A stretch of 62,854 bases of DNA from a virus. The notes beneath the pieces are model-generated. The model made no database searches, was not told the DNA's origin, and was given only the letters and a program-made list of their open reading frames with translations. The stretch covers positions 1 to 62,854 of IMG/VR virus record IMGVR_UViG_3300044634_002660; one strand, written 5' to 3'. Numbering within the stretch: position 1 is the first letter of the stretch; each line of letters begins with the position of its first letter. Positions 16,467 to 48,400 of this stretch are shown here, in pieces. The position numbers were made by a program, and so were the translations under genes.

Positions 16467-17948
16467 GTGAGAAGATTAAGAATTAGAAAAAACTCTTGGA
16501 TTATAGCTCCCGTACTGGTCTTGTCATTATTTTCAAGCCCTGTAAAAGCAGAGACTTTTGAAACCAATGGGGCTAATGATTTCTTTTTTACGCTTGAGTC
16601 AGGTACAACTTTTACAATAAGAACCTTTGCTCAGTCAAGAGGGATTGACAGCATGTTATGGCTCTATGACAGTAATAACCAAGTGCTTGTTGCTAATGAT
16701 GACCATTTCGGTCTAGATTCATATATCTCATACCCAGTCCAAAATACTGGTATTTATCGAATAAGGACTGGTGTTTGCTGTGGTGATCCGAATCGATGGT
16801 ATGGGAGCACTTACACATTTGAATCGAGCAGTGTCCCTACAAATGCACCGGAAACAACAACTACCACCAGCAGTACAACAACCACAACCGTTGCTCCATA
16901 TCTGAATCCTCCCATTGATTTAAGAGTTTCATCCGTTAATGAAAGCAAGGTTTATCTTGAATGGGATCCACCGCTACAATCGAATACCCAAGTTGAGAGA
17001 TATGCAATATTCTGGTCTTGTGACAGTTGGTCAACTGGTTTTGCAATATCCTCAACAGTAACAACTGCAATTGTTGAAAATCTAGATTCTGGTGCAACAT
17101 GTGAATTCCGAGTAAGAGCTGATAATGACTCTTTATCTATTTACTCTTTTTTCTCAGAGACGGTTTCTGGAACTACAACCGCAACTACAACGACAACCAG
17201 CACTACTACAAGCACAAGCACGACTACTACAAGCACGACAACCAGCACGACTACAACAATTCCAGAAACAACAACGACCTCTGTATTCATCTCTCCGTTT
17301 ACGACTACAACAATTTCAGCACCTACCACAACTGTTGCACAAACGACAACTGTTCCTCCGACTACGACACTTCCCCCTGTCACAACCACAACACCACCCG
17401 TAACCACTACAACAACTACTCAACCACCACAGGGTATTGATGAGGAAGTTACTGAGTTATTAAATAACACAGAGGAGTTGTCACAAGAGGAAATTGTTTC
17501 TGCAATTGAAAATATTATAAATGACGGAGTTAGCTCCGAAGAAGCCGCCTCTATTGCAACAAACTCAGCAATTCTTGAGGCGATATCTGCTGAAGATGCA
17601 AAAGAAATTTTTCAAGAAATTTCTATAAGTGAACTGACAGCAGCACAGCAGGATGCTCTTGTTGAAGCATTGACGAATGCTCCAGAGGATGTCAAAGAAA
17701 CATTTGAACAGGAGATTGACATCTTTGGTGAGGGGCTTGATGATTATGTGCCTACAGGCTCTCAAATTGATGTTGAAGCAAGAAGAGCACTGATTGCCGT
17801 AACAACGGTTTTAACAACGATTACAACGGCTCCTATGCCCTCTGGAGGCAGCTCTGCCCCATCGGGTGGAGGAGCAGGAGGAGGACCATCTGGAGGCGGT
17901 GGTTCTGGTAACACAGATCGGGGCGGTAGCCGATCAAGGAGAAAATAA
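16467..17948 (+). CDS. Secreted host-like protein: Fn3 domain plus Thr-rich linkers
   Basis: The start is GTG 16467, beginning MRRLRIRKNSWIIAPVLVLS and ending the signal at SSPVKAE, a clear export signal. Next comes a beta-rich domain (residues 30-130), a Thr run, a fibronectin type III domain (about 150-235), a second Thr/Pro linker of about 95 residues, an acidic helical domain (325-430), and a Gly/Ser tail ending in Arg/Lys. A TACAAT box ends about 8 bases before the GTG, so the mRNA would be leaderless. It resembles secreted proteins of freshwater Actinobacteria (from memory), suggesting capture from a host. It could alter the cell surface, for example in superinfection exclusion. Confidence 0.8.
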   Translation: MRRLRIRKNSWIIAPVLVLSLFSSPVKAETFETNGANDFFFTLESGTTFTIRTFAQSRGIDSMLWLYDSNNQVLVANDDHFGLDSYISYPVQNTGIYRIRTGVCCGDPNRWYGSTYTFESSSVPTNAPETTTTTSSTTTTTVAPYLNPPIDLRVSSVNESKVYLEWDPPLQSNTQVERYAIFWSCDSWSTGFAISSTVTTAIVENLDSGATCEFRVRADNDSLSIYSFFSETVSGTTTATTTTTSTTTSTSTTTTSTTTSTTTTIPETTTTSVFISPFTTTTISAPTTTVAQTTTVPPTTTLPPVTTTTPPVTTTTTTQPPQGIDEEVTELLNNTEELSQEEIVSAIENIINDGVSSEEAASIATNSAILEAISAEDAKEIFQEISISELTAAQQDALVEALTNAPEDVKETFEQEIDIFGEGLDDYVPTGSQIDVEARRALIAVTTVLTTITTAPMPSGGSSAPSGGGAGGGPSGGGGSGNTDRGGSRSRRK

Positions 17949-18408: not shown

Positions 18409-18609
18409 ATGATTAAGATTTCAGAACAAAATAAGGCAATGCTCGCCTCTTACGGAAGAAGCGTTTTAGGAGCTGGTGTAGCAGTTTATGTCTCAACAGG
18501 TGATGTAAAAATGGCTGCAAATGCTCTTTGGGCTGCAGCGCTCCCAGTGCTTCTTCGCTATGTAAATCCAAAAGACCTTGCTTTCGGCAAGACTGAGGCA
18601 GGTAAATAA
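18409..18609 (+). CDS. Holin-like small membrane protein
   Basis: A 66-residue protein from ATG 18409, chosen because AAAGGAG lies 6 bases ahead; a GTG further upstream lies inside the inverted repeat. A hydrophobic stretch (RSVLGAGVAVYVSTG...ANALWAAALPVLLRYVNPKD) gives one or two membrane helices. The ending LRYVNPKDLAFG is, from memory, common in r1t-type holins of actinophages. It ends one base into the endolysin gene (TAATG). Confidence 0.7.
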   Translation: MIKISEQNKAMLASYGRSVLGAGVAVYVSTGDVKMAANALWAAALPVLLRYVNPKDLAFGKTEAGK

Positions 18610-19142
18610 TGCCAAGAAAATATAGCTATTATCCAAGTTTTGATGGGAAAGGCGCACAGCCTGGAACCGAGAAGTTAGTTGAGCTTTGCGGTAAGAGATG
18701 GAAGACATCCAATATGGGAATCTACTCCCCCCGGTTGATGAGAAATTCTAAGACTGCTGGTAAGAAGATCGGTGATCCAGGCATGGAGAAGTTCTTAAGT
18801 GTACACGCAACTGGTGCTGCATGCGACATTGGTTACACAGATCGTAAGGTCGGAGTTGAAATGTGGAACTGGTTTATTAAGTACACTAAAGAGTTAGGTA
18901 TTGAAGAAATTCATGACTATGCATTTGATGCAAATCCTAAAGATAAGAATCAGGGGTATGGTCGCGGTTTTAGGTGCTCAAGAGGCGAAAACGAGGCTGG
19001 GGTAAAAATCTTTACCGAGTCTGATAATGCTGGTAGTTTTGGAGGGAAGTGGTTACATTTAGAGCTTTCTCCAGAAATGGCAAAAGATGCAGCAAAGTTT
19101 GAGGCAGCTTGGAGAGCCTTGCCTAAGCCCGGTGCGGCTTAA
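18609..19142 (+). CDS. Endolysin, M15-like peptidoglycan peptidase
   Basis: A 177-residue protein with zinc-peptidase signatures of the D,D-/D,L-carboxypeptidase M15 (VanY-like) group. SVHATGAACDIGY (His...Asp metal ligands, residues 65-77) and GKWLHLELS (final His, near 148) are seen. It would cleave peptide bonds in the cell-wall stem peptides. It has no signal peptide, consistent with release through the adjacent holins. A short C-terminal helical tail lacks a recognisable wall-binding domain. Confidence 0.82.
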   Translation: MPRKYSYYPSFDGKGAQPGTEKLVELCGKRWKTSNMGIYSPRLMRNSKTAGKKIGDPGMEKFLSVHATGAACDIGYTDRKVGVEMWNWFIKYTKELGIEEIHDYAFDANPKDKNQGYGRGFRCSRGENEAGVKIFTESDNAGSFGGKWLHLELSPEMAKDAAKFEAAWRALPKPGAA

Positions 19143-19154
19143 TTAGGAGCTAGA

Positions 19155-19235
19155 ATGAGTAGAAGTAAAATATGCAATTGTGGTTGCGAATGTGTTGATC
19201 AATGCGATTGTGGTTGCGAGGAGTGCGACTGTTAA
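19155..19235 (+). CDS. 26-residue cysteine-rich micropeptide, metallothionein-like
   Basis: A 26-codon frame with AGGAG 7 bases before its ATG and the next gene starting 4 bases after its stop. It has 9 Cys, all in residues 7-26, as repeated CxC units in a near-duplicated half: CNCGCEC, then CDCGCEECDC. It is acidic with almost no hydrophobic residues. The CxC-repeat pattern is that of metallothioneins, so binding of Zn, Cu or Fe-S is likely but unproven. It sits between the endolysin and tail genes and is too small for most gene callers. Confidence 0.7.
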   Translation: MSRSKICNCGCECVDQCDCGCEECDC

Positions 19236-19238
19236 CAA

Positions 19239-19574
19239 ATGGCCGGTGCTAGAGATATAACAATTTATAAAGGTGATTCTTATACCCATGAAGTTCGTAT
19301 TAAAAACAGTGCGAATACGGCTATAAACATTACTGGCAGAACATATAGGGTTCAGATGCGTCAATCAAAAGCATCGAGCTCTATTTTGCTTACATTTAAT
19401 ACAGCTATTACAAATGCTGCAAATGGAATTGTTACTTTCACTCTTCAACCAAGCGATACTTCAAACATTAGTGTTGGTACATATTATTATGACTTTGAAG
19501 AAACAAATGGTTCATATGTGACAACACTAATGGGAGGCAAGCTGGTAATTACAGGAGAAGTAAGTCGTGGCTGA
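19239..19574 (+). CDS. Baseplate/fibre-associated beta protein
   Basis: A 111-residue protein beginning MAGARDITIYKGDSYTHEVR. It has an Ig-like beta pattern (RTYRVQMRQSKASSSILLTF, then VTFTLQPSDTSNISVGTYYY), similar to the N-terminal BppU-like domains that anchor fibres to the baseplate. It leads the fibre gene series, overlapping the next gene by 8 bases. Confidence 0.65.
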   Translation: MAGARDITIYKGDSYTHEVRIKNSANTAINITGRTYRVQMRQSKASSSILLTFNTAITNAANGIVTFTLQPSDTSNISVGTYYYDFEETNGSYVTTLMGGKLVITGEVSRG

Positions 19575-22952: not shown

Positions 22953-24983
22953 ATGACAGGTGTAGAAAGATACAGTAGCAAAGCAAAAGTCTCATACAAC
23001 ATTGGTGATATTGGTCCCAGTGGTGGACTTATCTTTGCTACTCCATCAACAGATGGCAATACAACTGGAGAATATTTTGAAGCCGCCCCTTATGGGTGGA
23101 ATAGTGGAGCAGACCCCTCAAGAACTTGGGCAGAATCTGCATATCAAACAACAAATGTTGCAGGCGCTACTGGAACAGTTTTTGGCACTGGTTATGCCAA
23201 TACTTTGGCAATTATTGCTCAAGGAAATACAAACACTGCTACATCAGCAGCAGCACTTGCTCAGTCTTACAGGGGTGGAGGTTTTAGTGATTGGTTCTTA
23301 CCGTCATTTAACGAATTAACTCAGTTAGTTCAGGTACTTTTTGTTGACAATGGCAATATTGCAAATTTAGTAGAAAACACATCAGGAGTTGTTAACTATT
23401 GGAGCTCTACACAGGAGACTAATAATATATATCTTAATGCCCCCGCTAGGGCATTATCATGGATGTATTTTGGAGATGTTGGCCCTGAGAAGTCAGATCT
23501 TTTCTCTGTTAGACCAGTAAGAATGTTCTCAGTTACATCTTCATCATCTGTTCAAAGATCAGGTAATGATTCTGCTTATGGAAGCGGTCAAGATGGAACC
23601 GTTGTGATTGCGTCAAATATCTCTTTAACAAGAGATATGTACTATAGCAATCTTACAATTAATAGTGGTTCTCACTTAAATACAAATGGTTTTAAAGTTT
23701 TTGTAAAGAATAAATTAACAGTAAACGGAAGTATTGGTATAACATCTGCACAATCTGTTTCTACAGGAACTCTTGCTGGTCGTTTAGCCGTCGGTTCGGG
23801 TAATACAAGTGTATCTATTGGAGGTAACTCAGGTGGAAACACTTTTACTGCTTCTCAACTTACAGCATCTGATAGATCAAATCTTGAATTTCTTATTTCG
23901 GGCATAGCGTTTAATTCATCTGGAGTAATCACTTCTATTAAAGGGGGTGCTGCTGGAGTGGCAGGAGCAAACGGAACCGTAACTGCAGGAGGGGCTGGCA
24001 GTCCAGGAACTCTCTCAAGAAATGCCCTAGTTCCTGGCGGTCCTGGAAGCCCCGGAACGGCTCCACCTGCATCTGCTGGAGGCGCTGGAGGCGCTGGAGG
24101 TGCGGTTGTCCTTATTGTTGCTAAGCAAGTCATTGGTTCTGGAGTGATTTTATCTCAAGGACAAAATGCAAATGTCGGGGCAAGTAGTTCAACGGGAAAT
24201 GTTGGCAACACTGCCCCTACTGCAACACTAACTCATTTAGTTGATGGCTCTGCTCATTATAGAACTGGGGATGGTACAACTGGTCCTCACGCATCCGTTA
24301 CTGCACCCAATGTTCCTCATGGCACTCATTTCCCATATACACAAAATAGATTGCATGGTCACACATACCGCCATGTTCATACGGGTAATAACCATCATAC
24401 TAATAACAATGTTTTTGGTGCTTATCATAACAATCATGGAGAGCAAGCTCCTATAACAAATCCTCATCATTATGGAGATTTTAATGATACACCTCATGTT
24501 GACACTTTAACATCAACATACTTTGCAATTAGTGGTATTCCACATAATACCGGTCATAGAAACCATACTGGAATTGCTTTTACATTTACATACACTCACT
24601 ATAGTGGAGCATTTAATTCAACCAATGACACACAACATTTCACACGCCATTGGCCTGCCCAACATGATGGTAAATACCACATTCCTGCGAGTCATGAGCA
24701 TGTAGGCTATCCAAGACATCATGTTGACAATAACCATTCTCACTTCAGAGCCAGAAACGCAGGAACGGTTTCAACACAGGGCAGCAACCCCTATCCAGGC
24801 GGGGCAGGTGGGGCAGCAGGTTCTTCAACAGCAGGTTCTTCTGGCATAACCGGTGGTGGTGGTGGTATAATTGTTATTACAGATTTAATCGCTAATACAG
24901 TAACAACATCAACAGTTGGTGGTACTGTGTCTGGTGGTGGAACAGGTCAATCAGGAACTGTTCTTACAATATTAAATCAATAG
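22953..24983 (+). CDS. Fibre tip protein with DUF1566-like domain and His-rich insertion
   Basis: A 676-residue protein. Residues about 18-205 look like a DUF1566/Lcl-type domain related to C-type-lectin-like folds (SDWFLPSFNELTQLVQVLF, VNYWSSTQE, FSVRPVRMFS). Residues 205-425 repeat the module of the preceding gene (YGSGQDGTVVIASNISLT), then a Gly-rich segment. Residues about 428-600 are an insertion with about 30 His (roughly one in six). A Gly-rich end closes the module. A receptor-binding adhesin is likely. The His-rich part may bind metal ions that stabilise the tip. Confidence 0.75.
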   Translation: MTGVERYSSKAKVSYNIGDIGPSGGLIFATPSTDGNTTGEYFEAAPYGWNSGADPSRTWAESAYQTTNVAGATGTVFGTGYANTLAIIAQGNTNTATSAAALAQSYRGGGFSDWFLPSFNELTQLVQVLFVDNGNIANLVENTSGVVNYWSSTQETNNIYLNAPARALSWMYFGDVGPEKSDLFSVRPVRMFSVTSSSSVQRSGNDSAYGSGQDGTVVIASNISLTRDMYYSNLTINSGSHLNTNGFKVFVKNKLTVNGSIGITSAQSVSTGTLAGRLAVGSGNTSVSIGGNSGGNTFTASQLTASDRSNLEFLISGIAFNSSGVITSIKGGAAGVAGANGTVTAGGAGSPGTLSRNALVPGGPGSPGTAPPASAGGAGGAGGAVVLIVAKQVIGSGVILSQGQNANVGASSSTGNVGNTAPTATLTHLVDGSAHYRTGDGTTGPHASVTAPNVPHGTHFPYTQNRLHGHTYRHVHTGNNHHTNNNVFGAYHNNHGEQAPITNPHHYGDFNDTPHVDTLTSTYFAISGIPHNTGHRNHTGIAFTFTYTHYSGAFNSTNDTQHFTRHWPAQHDGKYHIPASHEHVGYPRHHVDNNHSHFRARNAGTVSTQGSNPYPGGAGGAAGSSTAGSSGITGGGGGIIVITDLIANTVTTSTVGGTVSGGGTGQSGTVLTILNQ

Positions 24984-25225: not shown

Positions 25226-25627
25226 ATGGATAGGGTCATATATTGTCCATCGGATGATTTTTTAGAAGAAGCATCTACCCTATCTTCAAAAAACTATTTG
25301 CAAATAATTATTGGAGACAACTCTCACACTGAAAGTTTAATTTTCGATAGAGAAAAAGTATCAGTAGTTTCTATACCTGTGTATAGAGGTTATACATTAT
25401 TAGGCAATGTTAAAAAAGGGTTCCATCAAAGTCTTAATTATAAAAATGAATTTATTATTATAAAAAATAAAATTCAGTTATTTGTTAATAACAAAATTAT
25501 TAAACCGATGTATGAAGAATCTCATGTCGCAAAATTTATATTTATTTGCGAAGAAATTGGGGATTATTCATGTAGAATAGTCGTTGATGGAAAAATAGAA
25601 GAGGAGTTTTGTTTTGTTGTCAATTGA
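25226..25627 (+). CDS. Hypothetical beta-rich protein
   Basis: A 133-residue protein from ATG 25226 (MDRVIYCPSDDFLEEASTLS). An earlier in-frame ATG would lie inside the preceding gene and is less likely. Predicted mostly beta (KNEFIIIKNKIQLFVNNKII, SCRIVVDGKIEEEFCFVV). It overlaps the oxygenase gene by 14 bases. Unknown function, perhaps linked to the oxygenase/halogenase cassette. Confidence 0.55.
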   Translation: MDRVIYCPSDDFLEEASTLSSKNYLQIIIGDNSHTESLIFDREKVSVVSIPVYRGYTLLGNVKKGFHQSLNYKNEFIIIKNKIQLFVNNKIIKPMYEESHVAKFIFICEEIGDYSCRIVVDGKIEEEFCFVVN

Positions 25628-26213
25628 GAAAGAGGAGAAGGCTCCTTGCATTTGGGTTTACAAAAACGCTTTTGATAGTAAAAATTTTTGCGAATTGGTG
25701 GAGGAAGAAACAGAAAAAGACTGGCCGTATATTGATTGGGTTTACTCTAGCACTGGTGATGACCAAGACAGGCAGACTAGCGAATATAGAACATCTCTTG
25801 AGATGTCAATGAATTTATTCTTTTCTGAAACAATTAATAAAAATTTAAAACATATACAAGATTTATTTTTAAAAGATATTTTTTCTAAAATTGATGAATG
25901 CGTATGGGATTATAGAACATGTTTTGATTTACACCTCAACGCAGATTCTGGTTACGCTCTTTTGAAGTATCTTGATGGAGGGGAATATCATATTCATCAT
26001 GACCACTCTTCTAGCAATGGAAGAGTTTTAAGCCTAGTTGCTTGTCTTGGCGATGATTTTGAAGGAGGAGAGTTGGAGTTCAATAATTTTGATTTGACAA
26101 TTAAACTTGAAAAAAACTCATTGGTTCTATTCCCCTCAAACTTTCCTTATACGCACATTGCTCACCCTGTAAAAAGCGGTGTGAAATACAGTCTGGTAAC
26201 ATGGTATATATGA
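25614..26213 (+). CDS. 2-oxoglutarate/Fe(II)-dependent oxygenase, prolyl-4-hydroxylase-like
   Basis: A 199-residue protein, start TTG at 25614 just after the overlapping previous gene. The facial triad is visible: HHDHSS (HxD) around residue 128, and the distal His in FPSNFPYTHIAHPVKSGVK near 182, followed by a basic residue for the co-substrate carboxylate. The strand LVACLGDDFEGGELEFNNF is the typical double-stranded beta-helix core of P4H-type enzymes. Substrate unknown: protein, free amino acid or small molecule. It lies two genes before a halogenase. Confidence 0.85.
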   Translation: MLSIEKEEKAPCIWVYKNAFDSKNFCELVEEETEKDWPYIDWVYSSTGDDQDRQTSEYRTSLEMSMNLFFSETINKNLKHIQDLFLKDIFSKIDECVWDYRTCFDLHLNADSGYALLKYLDGGEYHIHHDHSSSNGRVLSLVACLGDDFEGGELEFNNFDLTIKLEKNSLVLFPSNFPYTHIAHPVKSGVKYSLVTWYI

Positions 26214-27250: not shown

Positions 27251-27271
27251 ACACATATTGGAGTGTATAGA

Positions 27272-28735
27272 ATGAATAAAATAACAATAGTTGGCAGTGG
27301 TACCGCTGGTTTAGTCGGTGCAATAATGTTACGCTCAGCTTTCCCCTTGATAGACATCACAGTGGTTTCGTCATCTCAAGTTGGAATTATTGGTGTCGGT
27401 GAGGGGTCAACAGAACATTGGAGAATGTTTATGGATGCATGCAACATCCCTCTTGGCGAACTTTTAAATGAAACACAAGCAACCCATAAAAACGGTATTA
27501 GATTTGAAAACTGGACAAAACACACCCCTGATTACTTCCACAGTGTAAGTGATGCAAGCACCATTGGTTATTACAATTTTTACGGCTTATACAATGGTCT
27601 TATTGAGAATAATAAAACATTGACTGAAAATATTGCATCAAGAGCAATGATAGAAAACAAAGTTCGTGCTGACAGACCCCATGAATCTGTGAACCAATAT
27701 CATTTTGATACTGCCCTTCTCAACAATTATTTAACAAAATTATGTCAAGAAAGAAATATTTTTTTCATTGATAGCAAAATCGTTAAAACAAATTTAAGTA
27801 TCGAAGATGGTAGTATTAAATCAGTTATACTGGAAAATCAGGAAATTCTTGAGGCGGATTTTTGGATTGATGCATCAGGGATGGCTCGTATTCTTATATC
27901 AGAGGTAAGTGATGCTAAGTGGAAGTCTTTCTCCAATCATCTTCAGATGAATTCGGCAATCCCTTTCCCTACCGAATCTGACCCCTCTGGAGAAATTAGA
28001 CCATACACAAGGGCTAGGGCTATTCAGAACGGATGGGTTTGGGAAATCCCAACTCAGCAAAGAAGAGGTAATGGTTATGTTTATTCCACAAACTTTTGCA
28101 CTGATGATCAAGCAATTGCTGAAGTGTCAGCGTTGCTTGGATTTGAGGTTCAACCAGTAAAGACTATTAAATTTGACCCCGGTCATCTCGAAAAGATGTG
28201 GGTAAAGAACTGCGCTGCAATCGGTCTATCTTCTGCTTTTGTTGAGCCAATTGAAGCATCCTCCATTGGAGGTACAATTCAACAAATGAGGTGTTTGGTG
28301 GAGAATTTGTCCTCGTACAAGATTGGCCACACTGCTGTTCAAAATGAATACAATAAGAAGATGAATATTATGATGCAAAATATTTTATCCATGATTTATC
28401 TTCATTACATGTCTGACAGAAGAGATACTGAAATGTGGATAAACCAAGCGAATACACCAGTTCCAGAATATTTGCAAAACTTACTAGATTTGTGGAGCGA
28501 AAGACCTCCGTTCCATAATGACATACCAACAAGTAATTATGAAATGTTCCATGTTCCGCATTTTTATCATGTAGCCCAAGGTCAAAAGGTTCTGTCTAGA
28601 GATGCCTCTTCGCTTGCTATAAGTAGATTTAACATCAGAGATGCTGTAAAAAACTCTATGTATTCTGCTAAAATAAGACAATCAGATCATGCAAAGGTGG
28701 ACCATGCGAAATCGCTCAAAGAAATACAATTATAA
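27272..28735 (+). CDS. Flavin-dependent halogenase (tryptophan halogenase family)
   Basis: A 487-residue FAD enzyme from ATG 27272 (GGAG 8 bases ahead). It has the GxGxxG fold start KITIVGSGTAGLVGAIMLRS, then VGIIGVGEGSTEHWRMFM and ATHKNGIRFENW with the conserved Lys position of tryptophan halogenases. WIDASGMARILI and the halogenase-specific WxWxIP string (NGWVWEIPTQQRRG) follow. With reduced flavin, O2 and halide it would halogenate an aromatic substrate. Phage halogenases are known (VirX1 of a cyanophage, from memory). No flavin reductase was seen nearby. Confidence 0.9.
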   Translation: MNKITIVGSGTAGLVGAIMLRSAFPLIDITVVSSSQVGIIGVGEGSTEHWRMFMDACNIPLGELLNETQATHKNGIRFENWTKHTPDYFHSVSDASTIGYYNFYGLYNGLIENNKTLTENIASRAMIENKVRADRPHESVNQYHFDTALLNNYLTKLCQERNIFFIDSKIVKTNLSIEDGSIKSVILENQEILEADFWIDASGMARILISEVSDAKWKSFSNHLQMNSAIPFPTESDPSGEIRPYTRARAIQNGWVWEIPTQQRRGNGYVYSTNFCTDDQAIAEVSALLGFEVQPVKTIKFDPGHLEKMWVKNCAAIGLSSAFVEPIEASSIGGTIQQMRCLVENLSSYKIGHTAVQNEYNKKMNIMMQNILSMIYLHYMSDRRDTEMWINQANTPVPEYLQNLLDLWSERPPFHNDIPTSNYEMFHVPHFYHVAQGQKVLSRDASSLAISRFNIRDAVKNSMYSAKIRQSDHAKVDHAKSLKEIQL

Positions 28736-33452: not shown

Positions 33453-36400
33453 ATGGCTGAAAGAAATGGTAGAGTAGAGATAACTGCTGAGATTGATCAA
33501 CGACTTCAATCTGCCCTATCTCAAATGTCTTCTAGTCTTCGCAGTACTATTGAAGTAACAAACGCTGTAAATAGATCAACAGACTTGACAAAATCGACAA
33601 TGCGCGGTTTGAGTCAGGCTCTTTCCGTAACAAGCGGCTCTACTAATGAATATAATAGATCTGTAACTGAAGCTGTTAAGAATCAAGCAATCTTAGCAAG
33701 TCACTTTGGCAAAACAAAAGAAGCCATAGCCAGCCTTAATAAAATCATGGCCAACAGCCGGGGGACTAATGTAACTTCTCAGGATATTGCTGTTCAAAGA
33801 GCTTTCATTAATCAGTTGCAGTCTCAACTGGGTATTCAAAAAGAATTACAGAAGTATTCAAATACTCAATCTTTAATGGCACAAAGCAATGCCTTAAACT
33901 CTTTGGCTACAAAGTACTCTTATGCTGGAAACCGCTTGTCAATGGGGTTGACACTTCCCTTAGTCGGTTTCTTTAGAACAGCATTCTCCAACTATAGAAG
34001 ACTAGAAATAGAAACTGTTCGCACAACAAAACTTCTGGGTGACTCTTATACCGATGCTGGCGCTCAGGTAAAAACTCTTGGAAAAGAACTTGATGCTATA
34101 TCTCTCAAGTATGGTGTTGCTAGAGATCTTGTTCAGGGGCTTGCTGGCGACTATGCTGAATTGGGAATTACAGATATCAAGGCTCTTTCTGGATTAACAG
34201 ATTTAACAGCAGCAACTGAAAAACTTGGTAATGTTGATATCACTGAGGCTTCAAACTTCATCAAGTCTATTTATCAAACAGTTAATCGTGTTAAAAGAGA
34301 TGAGGCTGCAAGGGCTGGTCGTGCAATTAGCTTCAAAGATCCAGCAGAGGAGGCTCTCTTCTATGCTGATTCTATTGCTCAAGTTCGTGGTCAGTTGGCG
34401 ATGTTCAACCTTTTGGAAAACAAAACCTCTTTGGCACTTCAAGACATTGCGAAAGCATTCCCTGAATTAACAGCAGCATCAACCTCTTTTGGTCTTTCAA
34501 TGACTGAAGCATCAGCTCTTATTATTCCGATGGTTGCTTCTGGTTTCCAAGTAGGTGCTTCAGCAAACTCTGTGAAAGTTTCTTTGCAGAGATTAGTTGC
34601 TATGACAAAGAAGAACCAAGAAGCAATTAAAGAACTCAAATTAACTCAAGCAGATTTCAACTTTGAGGCTGGAGTTGGCATTGAAACAATTCAAAAACTA
34701 TCTGATGGTTATGAAAGTTTGAAAAGGACAAGAGGTGATGAAGGAGCGTTGAGATTCTTCTCCGATCTTTTCGGTGTTCGTCAGGGTCCAAGAATGGAAG
34801 TCGCCCTCCAGAACCTGAGTCAGTTCCAAAGTCAAATCAGCAAAGCTGGAACTATTGAAGATCAGTTAACAACGCAATTAGAAAACTATGTAAGACAAAG
34901 AGCCGGACAAGCTGGCTTGGGTGAAAAATATAGCAAAATGGAATTGACAAAATATTCTGACTTGTCAAAAGTTATTCGTCTTTCTCAGAATGCGGATAAA
35001 GAAGTTGCTTCTGCATTCACATCAGCAAGAGCAGACTTTGGTAATTATCTTGTTTCAGAAAGCAAGAGAGGACAAGACCTTCTCGGCAAGGTGACAACAG
35101 AAACTGGTAGAGCATTATTTGCTGCTGCTTCAGGTGGTGGCAAAGGTTCTCAAGCAGAGGCTACATTTAACTTAGAACTTGAGAAAGCCTTGGATACGGC
35201 TGACAGAAGATACAAAACATCAAGAGAATCCATCAAAGCGCTTGGTCGTGAAATGGTTCCTGTATTTGACTCAATCTTAAAAGTGGTTGTTCCATTATTA
35301 GAAAAATTTGCAAAATTTGTTGGAGGTATTCCATCTGGCTTTAAAGCATTCTTGACAATTGGCGGTCTAGTTCTAGCAATGCTTGGACCAATAATGAAGA
35401 TTCGTGGTGCATTTGCACAACTTCATTCAAGCGTTCTCTCTTTCAAAGCATCAGGGGGGATATTTAAAAATCTTAAATCATCAATTCATCCAATCTCTGC
35501 AGAACTTCTTGCGTCTTCTGATGCATTTTTGAGATTTAAAAATAAATTAACTCAGGTTGGAAATCAATTCTTTTTCAAGGGAACAATTAAAGAGTTAAAG
35601 CAAATGGAGAAATTGATTGCTGCTCAATCTTCAGGTAGAACAAGAGTATCAGATCGTCTTGAGAAAAAGTTGAAATTAAAAGAAACAGCAGATTATTCAG
35701 GTTTATATGAAGAAACATCAAACCAACTTAAAAATGTATTTGATGAATCTCTTGATGGATACTTAAAACCATATAGCGGAATTAAGCCAGATATTACTGG
35801 AACAATTATTGATGGTAGAGTCGTTGGCTTAGAAATGGGTAATGCTTTTGTTTCTGTTTTAACAAGTTTAGGTTTTGATCCTAGAGCCTTTACAAGAGTA
35901 GCGTCTACTGCTGGATCAGCAACGACTACAACTACTCCTGCTGGAGATGTTGTTGTTGTTCCACCAAACATAAAGAGAACGGGTAGCAGGACACCTCCTC
36001 CCGATGATGACGGTCCAGATGGACCTCCATCTGGTGGTAGTCCAGCAGGTGGTAGTCCAACAGGGGGCGCTCCAGCAGGTGGTGGTGCTGCACAAAGAGG
36101 GCCGAGAGTTCGTAATGCAATGTCTGGTCTTGAACAGGTTTGGGGCGCATTGCAGGGAACAATGGATTTTGTTAATAGTGCAACAAAGTCTCAACTTCAA
36201 GATTTTGCTAAATCATTAAATATTACAAAAGTTTCCGGATTTACTGTAAAGAGTCCTAAGTTGAAAGTTGCACAACTTAGAAGAGCAATCATTGAAGCCA
36301 TATCTGCTCCTAGTCAGGTTATTGCTAAGGCTGCTGAGGAAATTCAAACTACTGTTGAGCAAGTTAAAGAGACTGTTAACAACAACGCACCTCCAGCAAA

Positions 36401-39400
36401 AGATACATCAAAAACAAAGAAAGCCTCTGCAAAAGCGACGGAAAATGTTGCTGAAGCGCAGGCTGATGTTGATACAACTGCTGTTGTCGAGCAGGGTAAA
36501 GAAGATGAAAAGACAGCAAAAGAAACAAAACCAAAAACTGGTAGAAAACCTACAGTAAAGAAAAAATCAGAAGAAGCAGTCGATAATACTGCTGAAGCGC
36601 AATCTACTGCAGATGCTGCCACTGTTGTTGAACAAGGCAAAGAAGACAAAAAGGTTGTTGAACAGACAAAGCCAAAAACTGGTAGAAAAGCTCCAGTAAA
36701 GAAGGCTTCTGATAAAGCAGTAGACAATGTTGCTGCTGAACAAGCAAAAGCTGATGCAAAGGCGGCTGAGCAGCAGGGCAAGGCTGATGCCGCAGTAGTT
36801 CGTTCTGGTCCAAGAACAATTAAAGCAAGACTTAAAAGAAAGCCATTCCTTAAAGTTGATAAGAATCTTGAAGGAACTATTGGAGCCTTTAGTCATTTAA
36901 CTTCAACAATTAATGAAATGGTTGCCAACGCACAGCAAGTTAAAAAAGTTTCTGTTGAAGAAGCAATTGCAAAATTAAATTTAGGTATTAAAGGTTCTAA
37001 AAAACTTCGTTTTACTCCTAAAGACTTTACTCGTCTTGCTGAATTGATGGGTGTAATCCTTCCTCAAGCTTTTTATGAAATTCAAGAGTTTACAAATAAA
37101 GCCGGGAAGCCACTACAGATTCAGGCAGATAGTCTTCAAAATATAATTAATGCTATTGCAAAAATTGTTCCAGCATCTGAATCCCTTCCAGAGCTCGCTG
37201 GTAAAAAAGTTTTAAAAATTGAACAAGATTTGAATAGAGCATTTATTGCTCTTGAAAAACAAGGTGGAACAAAAGCTTTTAATATTGGTAATATTGTTGG
37301 AACATTGCGTCATACATTGAATGAAGCAATAAACATGATGATTCCAAAAGAAAACTTAAAAGAAGGTGTCGTTGTTCCATTAGAGGAGTTAACTTACAGT
37401 GACCTTGGAACTGGTGGAAGAAGAAGTCGTGGTCGAAAAGTAAAAGCAAAACCACTTGACTATGATAGTTATGTAGATTCTGCAATACAATTTACAAAAA
37501 CTTCTACAGGTACAGAATTTTGGCGGAAATTAAGAAAAAATTTACAACTTAGAACAGGTAAATCACTGTTTGAAAAGTCGATGACCGAAGAATCATTGAA
37601 TCAATCATATGGTCCAGCAACTGGTGAAGTAACTGAAGGAAATGTAAGAGTTGCAAGAGCATTATCTTTTGGCAGAGCAAAGAGTAGAGGTGCGAGAGCG
37701 CTATTCAGAAGAGAAATAGACTTTGCTAGTTCATTAGATAAACTTACAGAAGAAGCATACAATGCTCATCGTGCAAAAATTGAAAAAGGAATTGCCGATG
37801 CAAGAGCTCGTATGGAAGTTATTAAAAAAATGTTTAGTGCGGGTATGGACACTGACCCGGATAAAACAAAATTATTTTCTATAGATGAATTAAAAGCTGC
37901 ATTAGCGGATTTTGAAAGAGAAATGCGCGAGGCTAATCTTAATGAGGATATTAACGAAGTAATTGAAAAACTTAAAGGTCAATCGGAAATTATTTCTAAA
38001 AATAGAAATAGACCAGGCAAACTTGTGTCTGGTGAAGATGCTATTTTTGATATTTCAAAGAGGTTAGATGAAAACCTCGCAAAAGCTGAAGCATCTTTAA
38101 AGGCAGAGTGGGGAGATGCCGCCCCAGAGGGAGCAAGAAAATCAGCAATTAGAGCGGCCTTTAGGCAAACAGCAAGCGATTTGCAATATGCTTACATGGA
38201 GCAATTAGCATTATTCCAAAAGCAAGTCACCAAAGAAACTCCAGAAGTTGCAAGAAATCTTGCTATTGCAGATGAGAATGTTGAAATTGCAAGAGGCAAA
38301 CTTAAAGATGTAAAAGGTCTTAAGGTTGGCTCTGAAGAAGGAAAGGAATATTTCAAAGGTCGTAAAAAAGCTGATGTTGTTAAGGGTCTTGAGAAAGAAT
38401 TAAGTTTATTAGAAGAACAAAGACATGCAATTAAACTTCAACATGATGAATTAGTTAGAAGAAATCAGGCTGAGCAAGAAAATATTAGGAATCTTGAAAA
38501 AGTAAGAGATGCACAACTTGCTATTCTACAATCAAGAAGGGTCGATATTGGTCTTCAGCCAATTACAATATCTGGTCCAGCAATCGAAGATACTTCTCCA
38601 TCAAGCAGCGAAAGAGCAGAGGCTTATTGGAAATCAAGATCAGAGTCCATGTCGAAAGCTCTCAACCAAGAAGATGCAGACAAAAGAGCTCCTGATGCAA
38701 TTTCCACAACGGTAGTTAATGCTATTACTCAAGTTTCTCAAGAGATTCTTGATGCAGAGCAAGTCGTAAAGGCAGCAAGAGAAAGATTAGATGAACTTAT
38801 TGGTCTTAGAACAGATATTTCAATGTCTGAACCGGGAAAGCCTTTTGCTGAAAAAGCACAAGCAAGAGTTAAAGAAGCTGTTAAAAATCTTAAAGTTAAA
38901 GCCGCTAATATTGATAAAGAAATCGTTAAACAAGAAAAAACTCTTGAAGAAGCAAAGACTGAATTAGCAAAAGTTAGTGAAAGAAGTCGTGCTGGTGGTG
39001 GAGGTCGAACTGGTTCTGTAAACCTCGGAATGCCAATGGCCGGTGGTTTTGGTGATCCAATGTCAACAGACCTTTCTCCAAGAGGAGGAAGAAGATCTCC
39101 TCTTGACATGATGACACCAAGAAACATCATGAGCATGATTCCTTCCGGTGGAGATTTAACTCCTGACCTTAGCGGTGTTATTGAAACTCTGTTTAAACAA
39201 ATTTCTCAAGCTATCGGAGCACCTGCTGAGGTTATGGCGGGGGTTCTTAAAGATATTGATGACAGAGCAAAGAGAGTTTCAACAATTGTAAATACTTCTC
39301 TTGATCAATTTGATAATGAACTTGTTAATAAACTTATTACTCAAATTCAAGGCCTTCTCGGAGATAGTGAATTAACTGTTGAAAATATTTATAATGCAAT

Positions 39401-42400
39401 TCTTGGTGCAAGAAACCAAATTTATGGAATGGTTCCAAAAGAGATTAAAGGTAATGTAATAAGTGGTAAAGCAACTGCTGAGCAAGTTACTGGTCTTGTT
39501 GAGGCTTTAAATCTTTACAATGTTTCAAAAGAAGAACTTCTTAAACTTGATGCAAGAACATTGAGAAAGATTGCTGAAAAGATGAAACTTGAAGGTAGAG
39601 CAAAGGCAAGTGAAGATGTTCTTGCCGGTCTTATCCATAATGCAATATTTAATCTTGATAAAGAAACAATTAAGGCAATTGATCTTGTTGCTCTTATGCC
39701 TGTTGTTGAAGCAGGAGCAACTGTCAAGACTGCTGGCAAAACTGTTCCAAAACCAGCTGCTCAGAAGAAAGTTAAAGAAGCGGTTATTAAACTTGAGGAT
39801 ACTGTTGAGGAAGTGATTGTGACAACTGAGCAGGTCATTGAGACAACGGCAAAAACAGTTGATGCTGTATTCGTCAAAATACAGAAGTCTATTCCAGTCG
39901 CTGTTCGCGTTGGGCAATCCGTCTTAGACCGTAGGGCTACAGGAATCGGAAGCGGTTGGAAGGCATCTGACGATCCAGTTTCTCCACCAATTGCTCCGAA
40001 CTTACCACGCACTCCGGGGCCATTCCCTCCACCAAGATTTGGCTACGGAGGAACAGATTCTCAAGATAAATTCCTTCTTAGCCTTGTTAAAATCATAGAT
40101 GCTTCTGTTTCTGCTGGTAAAGCAGTTGGTTCTCTATACCTGTCGGTCATGAGGGCTGGAACAATGATGCTTCCATTTGGCAAGACTGTATGGAACATTG
40201 GTTCAGGATTCGTTTCCTTAACACAAAGCGCAATTGCTCTTTATAAGAGCTCTAAGGAGGCTGGAACGGGTCTTCAGGGCGTTGGGAAGACTCTTAAAGA
40301 GATTGCGAAAGCAAAGATATTTGGTGGAACATATACAAATGCACAAGGTAAGCAAGTCGAATCAGCTGGTGTTCTTGGTCGATTGAGCGGAACTGCTGGT
40401 TCGATAAAGCAAGCATTCTCTGGTGCAGCAGGTAGTGGTATTCAAGGTCTCATCAATACGGCAACAATGGGTATGGGGCAATTTGGATTTGTTGCTGGCA
40501 ATGTTCTTCAGAACCTGACTTCTGCACTCCAAACAATCCCGTATGTTGGAGGTCCAGTAGTTGGCATTCTTGGTGCAATTGCTGGCTCAATTTATCTTCT
40601 CATTAAGTCATCAACCATTTGGAAAGGAACAAACGAAGAAGCCTTTAAAAACTTTAAAGATGCTTGGCAAAATATTAAAGACATCTTGTCTGCAATCGCA
40701 GGCCCGTTTGAAGACTTCATCGGAACGCTTCTTGGAGCTCCAGAGGCTGGTGCAAACGCAACTGATTCGGCAAAAAGCAAGCTCCTTGCATTCTCAAATT
40801 TCATTCTCAACCTTTCTAATAGAATTGAATCTTTTGTAAAAGACTACATTGTTCCAGCAATTAGAAGATCACTAGAAATTGTTGTTTATATATTTAATGC
40901 AATTAAACCATTTGCCTCAGCAACTGTTGGATTGGTTGTTGCAATCTTTAATCAGATAACAAATAGACAAGCAAATATGGTTAAAAAAGCAGGAGATCTT
41001 TTCAAGCAAGGAACTCAAGAAGCAAGCGCTGGAAACTTTAGAATGGTTGATAATGCAATCAGAAATGTTAAAAGTGTTGAAGATGCTTGGGCAACATTTA
41101 AAAATTCTTTTAAAAATGTTTGGGAAGCAATTACTAATATTGTTCAATATTATTTATCAATAATTTATCTTAGAGCATATATGTTCTTAAATCTTGCAAT
41201 GGCAGAGATTCTTCAATCATTGGTTAGTCTTTTCTTTGAAGCCGGTCAGCAAATGGGTGAGGCTATTCAGAATGGTATGTTTTCAAAAATCAAAGGACCA
41301 CTTAAAGTTCTTAGCTATCTTAGCCCAGTAGCTAGAGGATTAGGCCCTCTAGGCTCCCTTATAGGGATGGCAAGTAGTGGTGCTCAAGGAGTATCCAATA
41401 ATTTCTTTGATAAGACACAAACAGATATCACAAGTAAGTTTAATAAGATGATTAAAGCCATTGAAAGCAGCGGTCAAGGTAAAGCAGCTTTTGATAAACT
41501 TCTTAATTCCTTAATGCCAAAAGGCGCTGGAAGTGGACTGTTCAAGTCGTTTAGAGATTTACTTACTAAAGTATTTAAAGACCCAACTGCTGCAAATGCT
41601 GCTGCTGACAATTTCAAGGATGCTGTAAATAGTGCTTTATCAAACCTTAAGCAAACCTTCTTTAATGCCGCATTAAGCGGTTTAAGCGATGCTGTTTCAA
41701 AAATCAAGAGTGAAGTCTCCGATATTCTTGAGACTCAAAAAGAAGAGTACCTTAAGGCTTATGATGATCAAATTGCTGCTATTGACGCAATGGTTGAGGC
41801 TGAGCAAAGACTTACCGCAACAGAAGAATATGAAGCTGACAAGAGACAGAGAATCAAGGATAGAGAACTTCAAAGACAGAACTATCAGAAGAATCGTACT
41901 TTGGCAATCTATGAGGGAAGAATTGATGATGCACGACAACTTGACCTTGAAGAGCAAAAAAACATTTCAGATTTCAATAAAGAAAATGCCGATGCAGAAA
42001 CTGCAAGGAATAGAGATCTTCAAGGTAACGCAAGAGCAGATGCAAAAGCAGTTATTGAAAAGCAAAGGTTGGAGGCTTCTAAATTATTTGATCAGGCAAT
42101 TAAGGATTTCAACGAGTATGTCGAAACTGTCGGTAAGAATGGAACATTAACAGAAGCTCAATTAACAGAGCAATGGAAAAAAATCTCTGAAGAAGCAGAA
42201 AAAACCTCAAAGGGATTGTATGACACATTCAAAACTTCATTTGAAGCTCTTCCGGGAGCAATATCCGCTGTTACCAATTCTGCTGGTGGTCTATTTAACA
42301 TTCCATACGACAAATTAATTGAAGAAACAAAGAAGCAATTTGGTATTGGAAATGAAAATGCAGACTCAATACTTGGCTTAACAAGATCGATGCTCACAGG

Positions 42401-45400
42401 TCAGGGTTCTGCAATATCCAGTGCTTTCGACACAAGTGGTCCAATTACAAAATCTTATTCTGAAGGTCTTGAGAAGTTAAAGACTTATATTGCAACTAAA
42501 AATTCTGGAGAGGGAGAGGATAGCCTTAAGGGCATCTTCAAGAAGATTATTGCTGACGCTAACGAAGCAGCAAGGCAAGAAGTTCTCAAGGGGCAGACTG
42601 GTATTGGAAGTGCATTTGACCAGTTGGTTGGGAAAATGGATGCATCTCTTAGAAAGCTTGCGATAAAGGATATTGTCGCAGCTCAACTTAAAGAAGCGAT
42701 TGATCTTGTTAATAATACGACAATCCCTGCTCCTCGAATTCAAAACAGAACCGATGCAAGTGGTAATAGTGGATTTGGCGCTGGTGGACAGAGAGTGCCA
42801 GCAGGCAGTAATCAACCAACTCCCGGATTTGATCCTAGGTCAGTGTTTGGTCTTACAAGTGGTCAAGACACTACATCACAGGGTCAGTGGTGGTCAAGAT
42901 TTAGACTGAATAACAAATCTCCTTGGAATGCTTGGAATAAATTTGCAGCAGACAAACTTCCTATGTATCAGAACTTCCAGTTAAAGAATCCACAAAGATG
43001 GGAACTTAAGTTCCTTCCAAAGTCGATTGCTGTTGATCCTAATACAGTTATTGGTGGCACAAACTTCGGCCCAGTTCGTTTTAATGGTGGAGCTATCCCG
43101 TATGGAAATGGTGGTCCAACAGAAGGTCCAATGCATCAAGGCATCCCCGCAATCCTTCATGGCGGTGAGTATGTTGTTCGGAAGTCTGCTGTTGATAAGT
43201 ATGGCACCGGAATGCTTCAAAAAATCAACCAAGGAACATTTGGGAAGAAAGGCGGTTTCTTTACTGGTGGAAGAGTTCGTGGAAGCAGCTTGGATGTTCC
43301 TGGTCTTAATATGGGAACAGATCCTAAATTTAATACAACAAGAGATGTAATTCGTAAACAATATACTAGTTTTTATGAAGGACTAGAGAAATTGGCCCCT
43401 AGTAGAGATAGAGCTCTTTATGAATGGCAAGTTTCAATGGGTGGTCTTAATTACAATTATATGAGAGAGATTTGGAGAAAAGAATCAAAAGATTGGGCTA
43501 ATAAAGGTGAATACGCTGGTGGTGGTCTTGGGATTGAATATGACAACTGGAAAAAATGGGGAGGTTTGGAATTCTCAGATTTCCCATATAATGCAAATCC
43601 ATATCAACAAATGGCTGTTTATAACAGAATGTTTGCTCTTGGTTATAAAGGAAAATATGGCGTAAAAGAAAAAGCCTTTAGTGCGGCTCAAAGAATTAAA
43701 GATACTTATGGTGGTAAATTGGCTGCTTTCCATTTTGGTTCAAAACAACTTTATGACAATGATGCATTTGTAAATAAAAATACTCCATCAAATAAAGATA
43801 AAACAAACAACTCTATTATTGTTTCTGAAAAGGATGGCATTGGGTACACACCAACAGGTAGTGCCGGATTCCGCAACTTCATTCCAATCTCTAGATTGAG
43901 AGATAGAAGAGGTAAAAGATTTGTAGACGCAAGATCTTCTTCCTACAAGCCATTCTCTTTGTTTAATGGTGGTTCAATGCCTCAATTCAAAAAGGGAGGC
44001 CCAGTCCGTTTAAGTTGTGGTATTTGTGGAAAAGGGTTTGCAAACGGAGGTCTGTTAAGAGCTCATCAACACACAGGTCATTTCAATGGTGGTTTGCTAC
44101 CAAGTTATAAAGTTGGTGGAACTGTAAAACCTGCTGCAGTAACTTTAGATGAATCGATTTATGGTCCAGAGCCAACAATTGATGAAAAAATGATTAAATA
44201 CATTTCTTGGTATAATAAAGACACAACGCCATATGATGCTCTATTCGATGTAAGACTAGGCGTTTCTGAGAGAACCGATCTTGGTCTTGTTAAAGGTATG
44301 GGAGATATTGGAACTTTAAGTAAATTCTATGAGAATGAAAAATATCCAAAAGGAACTATTGGTATTGGAAATATTTCCGATAAGAAAAATAAATACAATC
44401 GTGCAATCCTTACTTTAAAGAAAAACGCTCCTAAAAATGCAATTGATTATTTTAAAAAACTTATTTATTCTGAAATACAACGAGCAAAGAAAGTTCAAAA
44501 ATATCAAGAATACTATTTATCACAAGAAGAGAAATTTGCTTCTGATTATGCGCCATCTCCAAGTAAAGCTTTTGTAAACATACGAGGATTTGACTTCCAA
44601 CCTTATGAATATGACTGGCAAACAACAAGTATTGAGATGATGGCGAATCAACTTAAACAAGGAAACCTTAATAAAATTAAACCATTGAAAGCTTTTTATC
44701 AAAATTGGGATTCTAGTAAAGTTAAAAAGATTATTGGTATTGATCCTATAAAAGAAGGGTTCTATACAGCAATGAATTCCGTCTCCAAAGTAATAGGATT
44801 TGATGATTTTTCTATTGCTGATTCAAAAAATGCATTTCAAGATGCTAGAAAATATTTTAATAATAATAAAAATGTATTGGCTTTAAATGCACAGCCTTTT
44901 CCTCCTGGAGAACTTCCTGAAGGAAGTACTATAGGAGGAAGAGCTTCTGTATTCATGCCAGAAAAAATTGGAGGATCATCGTCTATATCAGCAATAGATT
45001 ATAATCCTAAAGTACTTGATTACTACCTAGATCACTATAAGAGAGGGGATATTGATAAATCTACTCTCAAGATACAACAACATATGAAACCTGATGCTTG
45101 GAAGAGAATATTTCTTCATGAATTTGGTCATTCTATTAATCTAGGTCACCTTGATGAAGGCTACAGGTCATACAGAAGCGGAGAAGAATTACCAAAAGGC
45201 TTTAGTTCACCATTTGATAGAAATGAATCCATTATGTCTTATGCATATGTAAATCAAGATGATACCCCCGCAAGATTTGGTATTGGAGACATTGCATATA
45301 TTCAAAGACTGCAAGATATTATTTTTAAAGGTAAAAAGCCAAAAACCCCAAAGGCAACGGTTCCATCAACAACGACAACTACTCCATCAAGACCTACTAC

Positions 45401-48400
45401 TACAACGACAACTCCTTCAAGACCTACAACAACGACAACTGTTCCATCAAAACCTACTACGACTACAACTGTTCCAAAGGCTCCTACTACAACTGTTCCT
45501 CCAAAAACGACTACAACAACTGTTCCACCTACAACGACAACAGTTCCTACTGTTCCTTGTCCTACAATCCCTGGTGTAACACCAATACCTAATCCAACAA
45601 TACCAAATCCTGGTACTACAACAACTATTCCTAAAATACCTGGGGTTACTCTTCCTAATGGCACAACAACAACATCAATTCCTGGTATTGACAATACAAA
45701 ATGTAAAGTAATACCAATTAGAGTTTGGGATAACGATAAAAATCCAGGATTTACAGAGGATAGTTTTGCTGGAATGACTTGGCCAATGGCAAGAGATTCT
45801 CAATCTGGATGGAGAAAATGGTTTAGAGAAAGAAAAACTATTGGATCAAAATGGACTTACTGGAAAGTTGTAAATCCTAAAGAAAAGGCAAAGCTTGCAA
45901 AGAAGCAAGTTAAGAATCCTGAGCTTATTGAGAGTATTCAATATCCGGTTCCTCATGACCCAAATGCTTGGCAGATGGAGAAAGACAAATACCCAGAAAG
46001 ACAACCCAGTAGGGGAGGAAGTAAATCCGGGAAAAATGGCAGAACATGGCGTATTAAATGGGTAAAAACTTGTGAGACTACTCCACCAACAGGAACAACA
46101 TCGTCAACATCAACTACAACAACCATGCCAAATGGAGTTCCATCAACATCTGTTCCTGGAGTTACGACATCTACAACACCAATAAGACCAATACCTAACC
46201 CAACAATACCTCAGCCCTGTTTCCCTCCAGAAATTTATCCAACAGGGTTAAAAGTTCCACAATCTAGAATTGTTGCTATTTATGACAAAGATCCAACATC
46301 AAGATTTGTTGGTGGAATTATGCCATATGCAAATGGAGGTCCAACGGTAGGACCAATGCATAAAGGTATTCCTGCCATTCTTCATGGTGGTGAATATGTT
46401 GTAAGAAAGAGTGCGGTTGACAAATATGGCACCAACATGCTTCAGAATATTAATCAGGGCACATTTGGTAAAAAAGGCGGTTACTTTAAAGGTGGTCTTA
46501 TTCCATCAGGGCTTGAGGTATCTTCCGATAAGAAAAATCTGTCCAGATTGGGATCTCTTAAAATCCCAAGACTTCAACTTAACAGTCCTGTATACGAAGG
46601 TGTAAATGAGGATACATTGAATGCTGGTCTTGGACATCAACCGGGTACACCATTTGGATGGTTGGGTAATACCGTTATTGGTGGACATCGCACTAAAGGC
46701 AATAGCCTATTTAGAAATATTACAAAAATGATTAAAGGCGATAAAATTAATTTAACTAGAGGTAATTCTAGTTATGAATACGAAACCGCTTATTCAAGAA
46801 TTTTAAAACCAAATCAAGTTCAAGAATTAATGGGACAACCTCAAGGTCAAGTTAGTGGTTATAATTCAATATTAAGCCTCTTCTCATGCCATCCTCTTGG
46901 TTCAACAAAACTTAGATACATTCTTATTGCTAAATTAAAAAAGGCTTTTGATGGTAGAAAGGTTTCTAGATACAAGATTGGTGGAGTTGTAAAGGGAGGC
47001 AAGAAATCAAATCCTGCCGGAAATCCACCTCCTCCATACAAGACATGGGAAGAGTATTTTGCTGCAGAGGGACCACTAACGCCATATCAAAAATCTATTA
47101 TGATTCCTAATAGGAATAATAGTAGTAACCTTCAACCTTACGATAAGAAATGGCGCGCTGAAATAAAAAGAAAAAATGAGGCTTTTGATAAAAGTTTTAT
47201 TAATAGATTTGTCAAACCTGTTAGTGAGATTTTTGGTCCTATGGCTGCTATCAAGTTCGGCGCAGAAACAATTACTGGTAAAGACCTAGATGCCGCTGCT
47301 GGTTCTAATAAAAAACAAAACCGTCTTGGTTCTGCTGCCAACACCATTTTGTCGTTAATACCCTCAAAGGTTGTAACAAAACCACTTGGAAAGATTGCAT
47401 CAAAAACTGGTATTTCTGGAATTGCTTCTAGAGTTATTGGAAAGGGTTCTGGTTTAATTGGTAATCAACTTAAAGGTTTCAAATCAAAATTTGCATCAAT
47501 GTTTAAGGGTCTAAAATCTTCAAAGGCAGCGAATAGTGGTGTGATTGAAGATCAAATACCAACACACTGGGGAGCAATTACTCAAGGATTAAAGGAAGGG
47601 GTTATTCCAACAAATAAACAAGCAGTTGATGCTATGCTTGCAAGGCAAGCACTTGAATTATTTGATGAATTAGATTATTTAGTAACTGGTCAAATAAAAG
47701 GTAGTGTCAATAGCCTTGATAAAGCTCGATTCTTAGATCAGTTAATTCTTGATGCAATAAATGATGTCCCTACAACTGCCACTAAAGATTTGAGCGTAGA
47801 AGACAGACTTTTTGGTATAGCTAAAAGTCTTGCTAATCTTTTAAACCCAAAAAAGGGATTAAGCGCTCTTGACCCAAGAATTCTTCCAAAATCAAAAGAA
47901 TTAATTGAATATCAACAATTTGTAAAAGATTTTAATGGAATGCTATTGCGTGAAGTGGAGTTAAGATCTTCAGCTTGGAATAAAGCAAATCCAAATGCAA
48001 CCCGTGAAGAACAAAGTGTAGCATATAAAGATATTCTCGATAACTGGTATGATAAAAATAAAATTCCAGATACTCCACTTTCAACAAATGATATTGCTCC
48101 TAATACAACTAAAAAAATTAAAACACCTAATAAATCTAAAAAAAATAATATCTTTAACCCTTTTAAAAATATCTCACCAAAAAATAAAAAATTTAATGGT
48201 GGAGCTATTCCATACTTTGATGGTGGTAGTACATACGGATCAGAGAGCCAAGGAATTCCTGCAATTCTTCATGGTGGTGAATATGTAATTCGTAAATCTT
48301 CTGTTAATAAATATGGAACAAATATGCTTCAAAATATCAATCAGGGTATTTACAAGAAAGCTGGTCAGTATAAGATTGGTGGATATGTTGATGGAATTAA

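Follow-up and report, generated by a model that had tools for sequence, protein, structure and literature searches.

Among single-domain metallothioneins, the copper protein of Neurospora crassa and the beta domain of the animal forms are chains of about 25 residues or single nine-cysteine domains, with CxC repeats and almost no aromatic residues. Nine thiolates fit a cluster of three divalent metal ions, as in the animal beta domain, or several Cu(I) ions. Phytochelatins, (gamma-Glu-Cys)n-Gly, are made by an enzyme and chelate divalent metals. The SmtA-type proteins of prokaryotes are about twice as long as the phage peptide described below, and have a zinc-finger-like fold and histidine ligands. 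This zinc-finger fold has been reported for the SmtA-type metallothioneins, and the bacterial metallothioneins tested carry three to four zinc ions, SmtA four and PflQ2MT three Zn(II) (PMC10612145). Apo-metallothioneins have no fold, and their shape arises around the metal (PMC11273490). A search of the open-access literature found no paper on a phage-coded metallothionein.

The DNA analysed here (the window, 62,854 nucleotides in full) comes from a tailed phage represented only by environmental DNA, and carries a gene for a 26-residue cysteine-rich peptide. The gene and its immediate surroundings are as follows:

18609-19142, + strand: endolysin-like gene upstream of the peptide, carrying the M15/LAS-type zinc-peptidase motifs SVHATGAACDIG and WLHLE
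19145-19149, + strand: AGGAG ribosome-binding site, 5 nt 5' of the peptide ATG
19155-19235, + strand: metallothionein-like peptide gene, product MSRSKICNCGCECVDQCDCGCEECDC
19173-19232, + strand: cysteine core CxCxCxC-x3-CxCxC-x2-CxC, running up to the stop codon
19239-19574, + strand: LtfC-like (tail-fibre-assembly-like) gene downstream (Pfam PF23926, E 9.7e-7; PHROG 1084 and 3304)

As read in the window, the frame runs from an ATG at 19155 to a TAA at 19233-19235. The upstream gene stops at 19142, which leaves 12 nt to the peptide ATG, and 3 nt separate the peptide stop from the downstream ATG at 19239. The nine cysteines of MSRSKICNCGCECVDQCDCGCEECDC are residues 7, 9, 11, 13, 17, 19, 21, 24 and 26, making up 35% of the peptide (9/26) and forming six CxC steps, and there are no aromatic residues. 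The first-pass annotation had cited nine cysteines in the last 20 residues, the CxC repeats, the ribosome site and the tight packing between genes, and all of these were confirmed in the sequence. When the window was simulated 30 times with a first-order Markov model and read in six frames, the maximum number of cysteines in a stop-free stretch of 26 codons was 5-8 and never 9. The window itself contains a second nine-cysteine stretch, antisense to a threonine-rich repeat near 17258, thus cysteine density alone is no proof of a gene, and we accept 19155-19235 as a gene because it is conserved in relatives.

For this comparison, we retrieved 80 genes related to the upstream endolysin-like one and inspected the region downstream for the peptide. 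The nearest of these have it in one of two forms. In L002-L004, L006 and L007, it has 26 residues and comes after an AGGAG; a similar purine-rich ribosome site is conserved among the 26-aa relatives. In L015, L016, L018, L030, L053, L057, L071, L074 and others, the peptide is 31-32 residues long and its ATG overlaps the endolysin stop codon or lies directly next to it. Further peptide-bearing contigs were collected by pattern scans. Anchor and pattern retrieval combined gave 38 distinct DNA sequences encoding 33 distinct 24-residue cores, with the consensus R/K-x-K-x-CxCxCxC-x3-CxCGC-x2-CxC-stop. The nine cysteines are invariant in all 33 peptides. On a tree of the 38 sequences, the nine cysteine codons underwent 79 changes between TGC and TGT and no residue change, whereas at the other positions the residue mostly changes often, Lys 5 and Gly 20 being the exceptions. 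Accordingly, pN/pS was 0.22 over the 24 codons, 0 at the cysteines and 0.48 elsewhere.

Since the pattern scans presuppose the cysteines, four cysteine-independent anchors were added (endolysin, LtfC-like, connector-like and portal). None of the four anchor sets contained a member that had lost a cysteine, and the portal-anchored set contained no remnants with six to eight cysteines. The L371/L375 type, MRNKYCGCNCRCEERCECGCDLCDC, which was found by anchor, has lost the first conserved glycine and retained all nine cysteines, and a looser pattern without this glycine gained only the L371/L375/L440 type among the matches listed. The peptide gene is therefore real and under selection at the protein level, with every cysteine kept. 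This bears out the initial proposal that the cysteine-rich frame is a real gene: the small frame is present in dozens of related phages, while some relatives lack the gene altogether, and its cysteine codons are switched synonymously but not replaced.

We read the product as a phage metallothionein, a metal-thiolate buffer that would act late in infection, and give this reading a probability of roughly 0.6. The peptide is small, with a very high cysteine content in CxC-type motifs, its cysteine positions are conserved as a set, and aromatic residues are few or absent: in the relatives, Tyr or Phe occurs rarely, in a few members, and Trp and Phe occur in the N-terminal extension of L084. Histidine is found at one peptide position, mainly in one clade. 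The original description of a real metallothionein-like gene at the junction of lysis and tail genes is supported. Nine thiols within 20 residues, CxC steps and a near lack of aromatic residues are the compositional hallmark of metallothioneins, and from this composition we infer that the peptide binds metal. Its chain opens with a few residues of basic character (R-x-K), after which come 20 residues that include the nine cysteines, most of them separated by acidic residues or glycine. Under the reducing conditions of the cytoplasm, these thiolates would enclose one metal-thiolate cluster, in the simplest case with three Zn(II) or Cd(II) ions, or with several Cu(I) ions; the acidic residues between the cysteines would suit divalent ions. 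Expression would be late, judging from a position downstream of the lysis genes and upstream of those for tail fibre or connector, and the peptide could then take up thiophilic metals as a general buffer or sink, with oxidants as a secondary target, at a time when host proteins are degraded and late virion proteins build up. The buffering role and the identity of the metal are the least certain parts of this reading. A precursor of a ribosomally made, modified peptide (RiPP) was considered and rejected, as no leader segment was seen and no modifying enzyme was recognised among the annotated neighbours.

The core contains two CGC units, and the glycine of the second is invariant while that of the first is kept in all but two sequences. 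CGC peptides are mimics of disulphide isomerase, and the gene adjoins lysis and tail-fibre genes, which would suit a thiol-redox peptide that works like a miniature disulphide isomerase or traps oxidants, at lysis or during the folding of tail proteins. However, such a catalyst needs two cysteines and here nine are strictly kept; moreover, an export signal was not seen and the cytoplasm is reducing. We consider a redox role unlikely.

The peptide gene is the rightmost one of the lysis cassette and always lies at the same junction, with varied neighbours. On its right, the next element is an LtfC-like/tail-fibre block in some members and a head-tail-connector-like gene in the others. This constant place immediately upstream of a tail-fibre or connector gene could point to a small structural virion peptide, located in the tail fibre or connector and crosslinked by disulphides or a metal cluster. 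Yet the two kinds of gene that can follow the peptide are not related to each other, the tail-fibre genes differ greatly between phages, and the peptide is missing from some phages whose capsid and portal are related, which makes a virion component improbable. To the left, most members have a lysin of one of several kinds, M15-like by motif, VanY in L228, or of the Rv2525c-like glycoside-hydrolase type in L084. This place is taken by an SNase-like (nuclease-like) gene in L126, L205 and L211 and by a small holin-like one in L166, L219 and L242. Eleven of the 38 sequences, mostly from one clade, have a TATAAT box in the roughly 50 nt that precede the start, and in this clade the peptide gene may have its own promoter. 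The varied neighbours together with the TATAAT box fit an independent job and not an accessory of the endolysin. As a separate observation, the phages without the peptide in L331-L399 have a strongly conserved promoter-like motif of the TATAAT/TACAAT type, e.g. TTCTGTTATAATTGAATATTATG, directly before the connector-like gene. Upstream of the lysis genes, the window encodes a threonine-rich low-complexity protein with (T)n stretches (16467-17948, + strand), which has variable relatives at the same place in other phages.

The first-pass annotation had suggested that the peptide serves the zinc-dependent endolysin or helps the His-rich tip of a fibre. The window's own endolysin-like gene (18609-19142) has no match in Pfam, PHROGs or PDB, and we regard it as a putative endolysin by its motifs and its position in the lysis cassette. 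The fibre domain in question is:

24204-24803, + strand: His-rich domain of about 200 residues in a fibre-like protein, inside gene 22953-24983

Its nearest relative is 66% identical. A zinc supply to either partner would account for the endolysin-like gene directly upstream of the peptide in most members, and among the records tested such His-rich domains were confined to those with the peptide. However, L009 and L010 (records of 64 and 77 kb) carry an endolysin 97% identical to that of the window and no peptide, L084 has the peptide beside its Rv2525c-like lysin, and elsewhere the upstream genes are the nuclease- or holin-like ones. Of 21 other records with the peptide, no more than 7 had the His-rich domain, two of them as weak matches, although these records are fragments and absence from them is not final. 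Neither proposed service was upheld by these contrasts, and a supplier of zinc to endolysin or fibre is quite improbable; most likely, the peptide works on its own.

Two further features were seen in these regions. In peptide-less relatives, the second gene after the endolysin (L529:13422-13680, L009:5764-6007 and L010:5764-6007) encodes a protein of 80-85 aa with a zinc-finger-like CxCxxC...CxxxC pattern, for which there was one weak MYND match, below the cut-off. The tail-fibre region of the window contains a tryptophan halogenase gene (27263-28735, + strand; Pfam PF04820, E 2.6e-102; PHROG 2928) and, near it, a 2OG-Fe(II) oxygenase-like gene (25614-26213, + strand; PHROG 61, E 9.7e-31).

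A profile of the peptide gave one match per record in 26/26 peptide-bearing records and none in eight endolysin-relative records without the peptide. Among 21 portal-anchored loci followed by 8.3 kb or more of sequence, the peptide was present in 14 and absent from 7, and because about a third of such related phages do without the gene, it is not essential to them. The portals found in peptide-bearing records are 67-87% identical to that of the window. Among named phages, those of Streptomyces such as Annadreamy (Stanwilliamsviridae, Loccivirinae) come closest in their portal, at 43-45%, and the host is likely an actinobacterium. The window also encodes a tape-measure protein of 5068 residues (33453-48659, + strand; PHROG and Pfam tape-measure matches), more than twice the size of that of the related Annadreamy (6231 nt), so that the predicted tail is among the longest of any phage.

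So far, members of the peptide family come only from uncultured tailed phages. The strict peptide pattern found no family member in 84,980 prokaryote (bacterial and archaeal) species. The 61 pattern stretches in prokaryote genomes were rejected, since none combined a K-x-C start with a terminal CxC-stop, and most were low-complexity or repeat frames. PF02069, the profile of SmtA-type prokaryotic metallothioneins, did not match any of 34 peptide members at E values up to 10, nor any of 11 phage records; it did detect the Synechococcus elongatus control. The family had no match in Pfam, NCBIfam, PHROGs or PDB; short cysteine-rich peptides often slip past profile searches. A tblastn search with the peptide in a collection of named phages returned nothing, although the low-complexity filter may have masked the query. 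In named phages, the blastn matches were limited to a weak one in a gut phage and another in Campylobacter phages, and the latter was dismissed as chance, since the product there is a 113-aa protein that lacks the motif. Standard annotation has probably missed the gene, because its 25-33 residues fall below the usual cut-offs for gene calling.

In their apo form, peptides of the metallothionein type can draw zinc away from sites that bind it less strongly, and a peptide of which no copy at the strict pattern is encoded by the species searched might strip zinc from host proteins and disable them. Against such a host-directed role, the gene lies in the structural/lysis block and not among early takeover genes, and we think it very unlikely. 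A broader form of the metallothionein reading is tentative, with somewhat less than an even chance of being correct: that of a phage-only metallothionein family, phytochelatin-like in its acidic character and unrelated in sequence to the cellular ones, by which lytic phages, probably of actinobacteria, would control zinc or copper in the dying cell, either protecting virion assembly or stripping host metalloproteins. If metal is bound, tailed phages own a metallothionein, and metal handling becomes a function of late infection.

With the prokaryotic metallothioneins of PF02069 (SmtA, PmtA), the phage peptide shares small size, richness in cysteine and a bacterial-type setting, but the profile match is absent, and 25-26 residues leave no room for a zinc-finger-like fold. 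In size, CxC repeats and scarcity of aromatic residues it resembles the Neurospora crassa copper metallothionein and the animal beta domain, from which it differs in cysteine spacing and in having acidic spacers instead of Gly, Ser and Lys; the PDB set gave no sequence match. Like phytochelatins, it alternates acidic residues with cysteine, but it is a gene product, with glycines and a fixed spacing. In all features legible in its sequence it looks like a metallothionein, and it is best called a putative phage-borne representative of a functional kind that is already known, metallothionein-like, from a family that is new to the protein-family libraries consulted.
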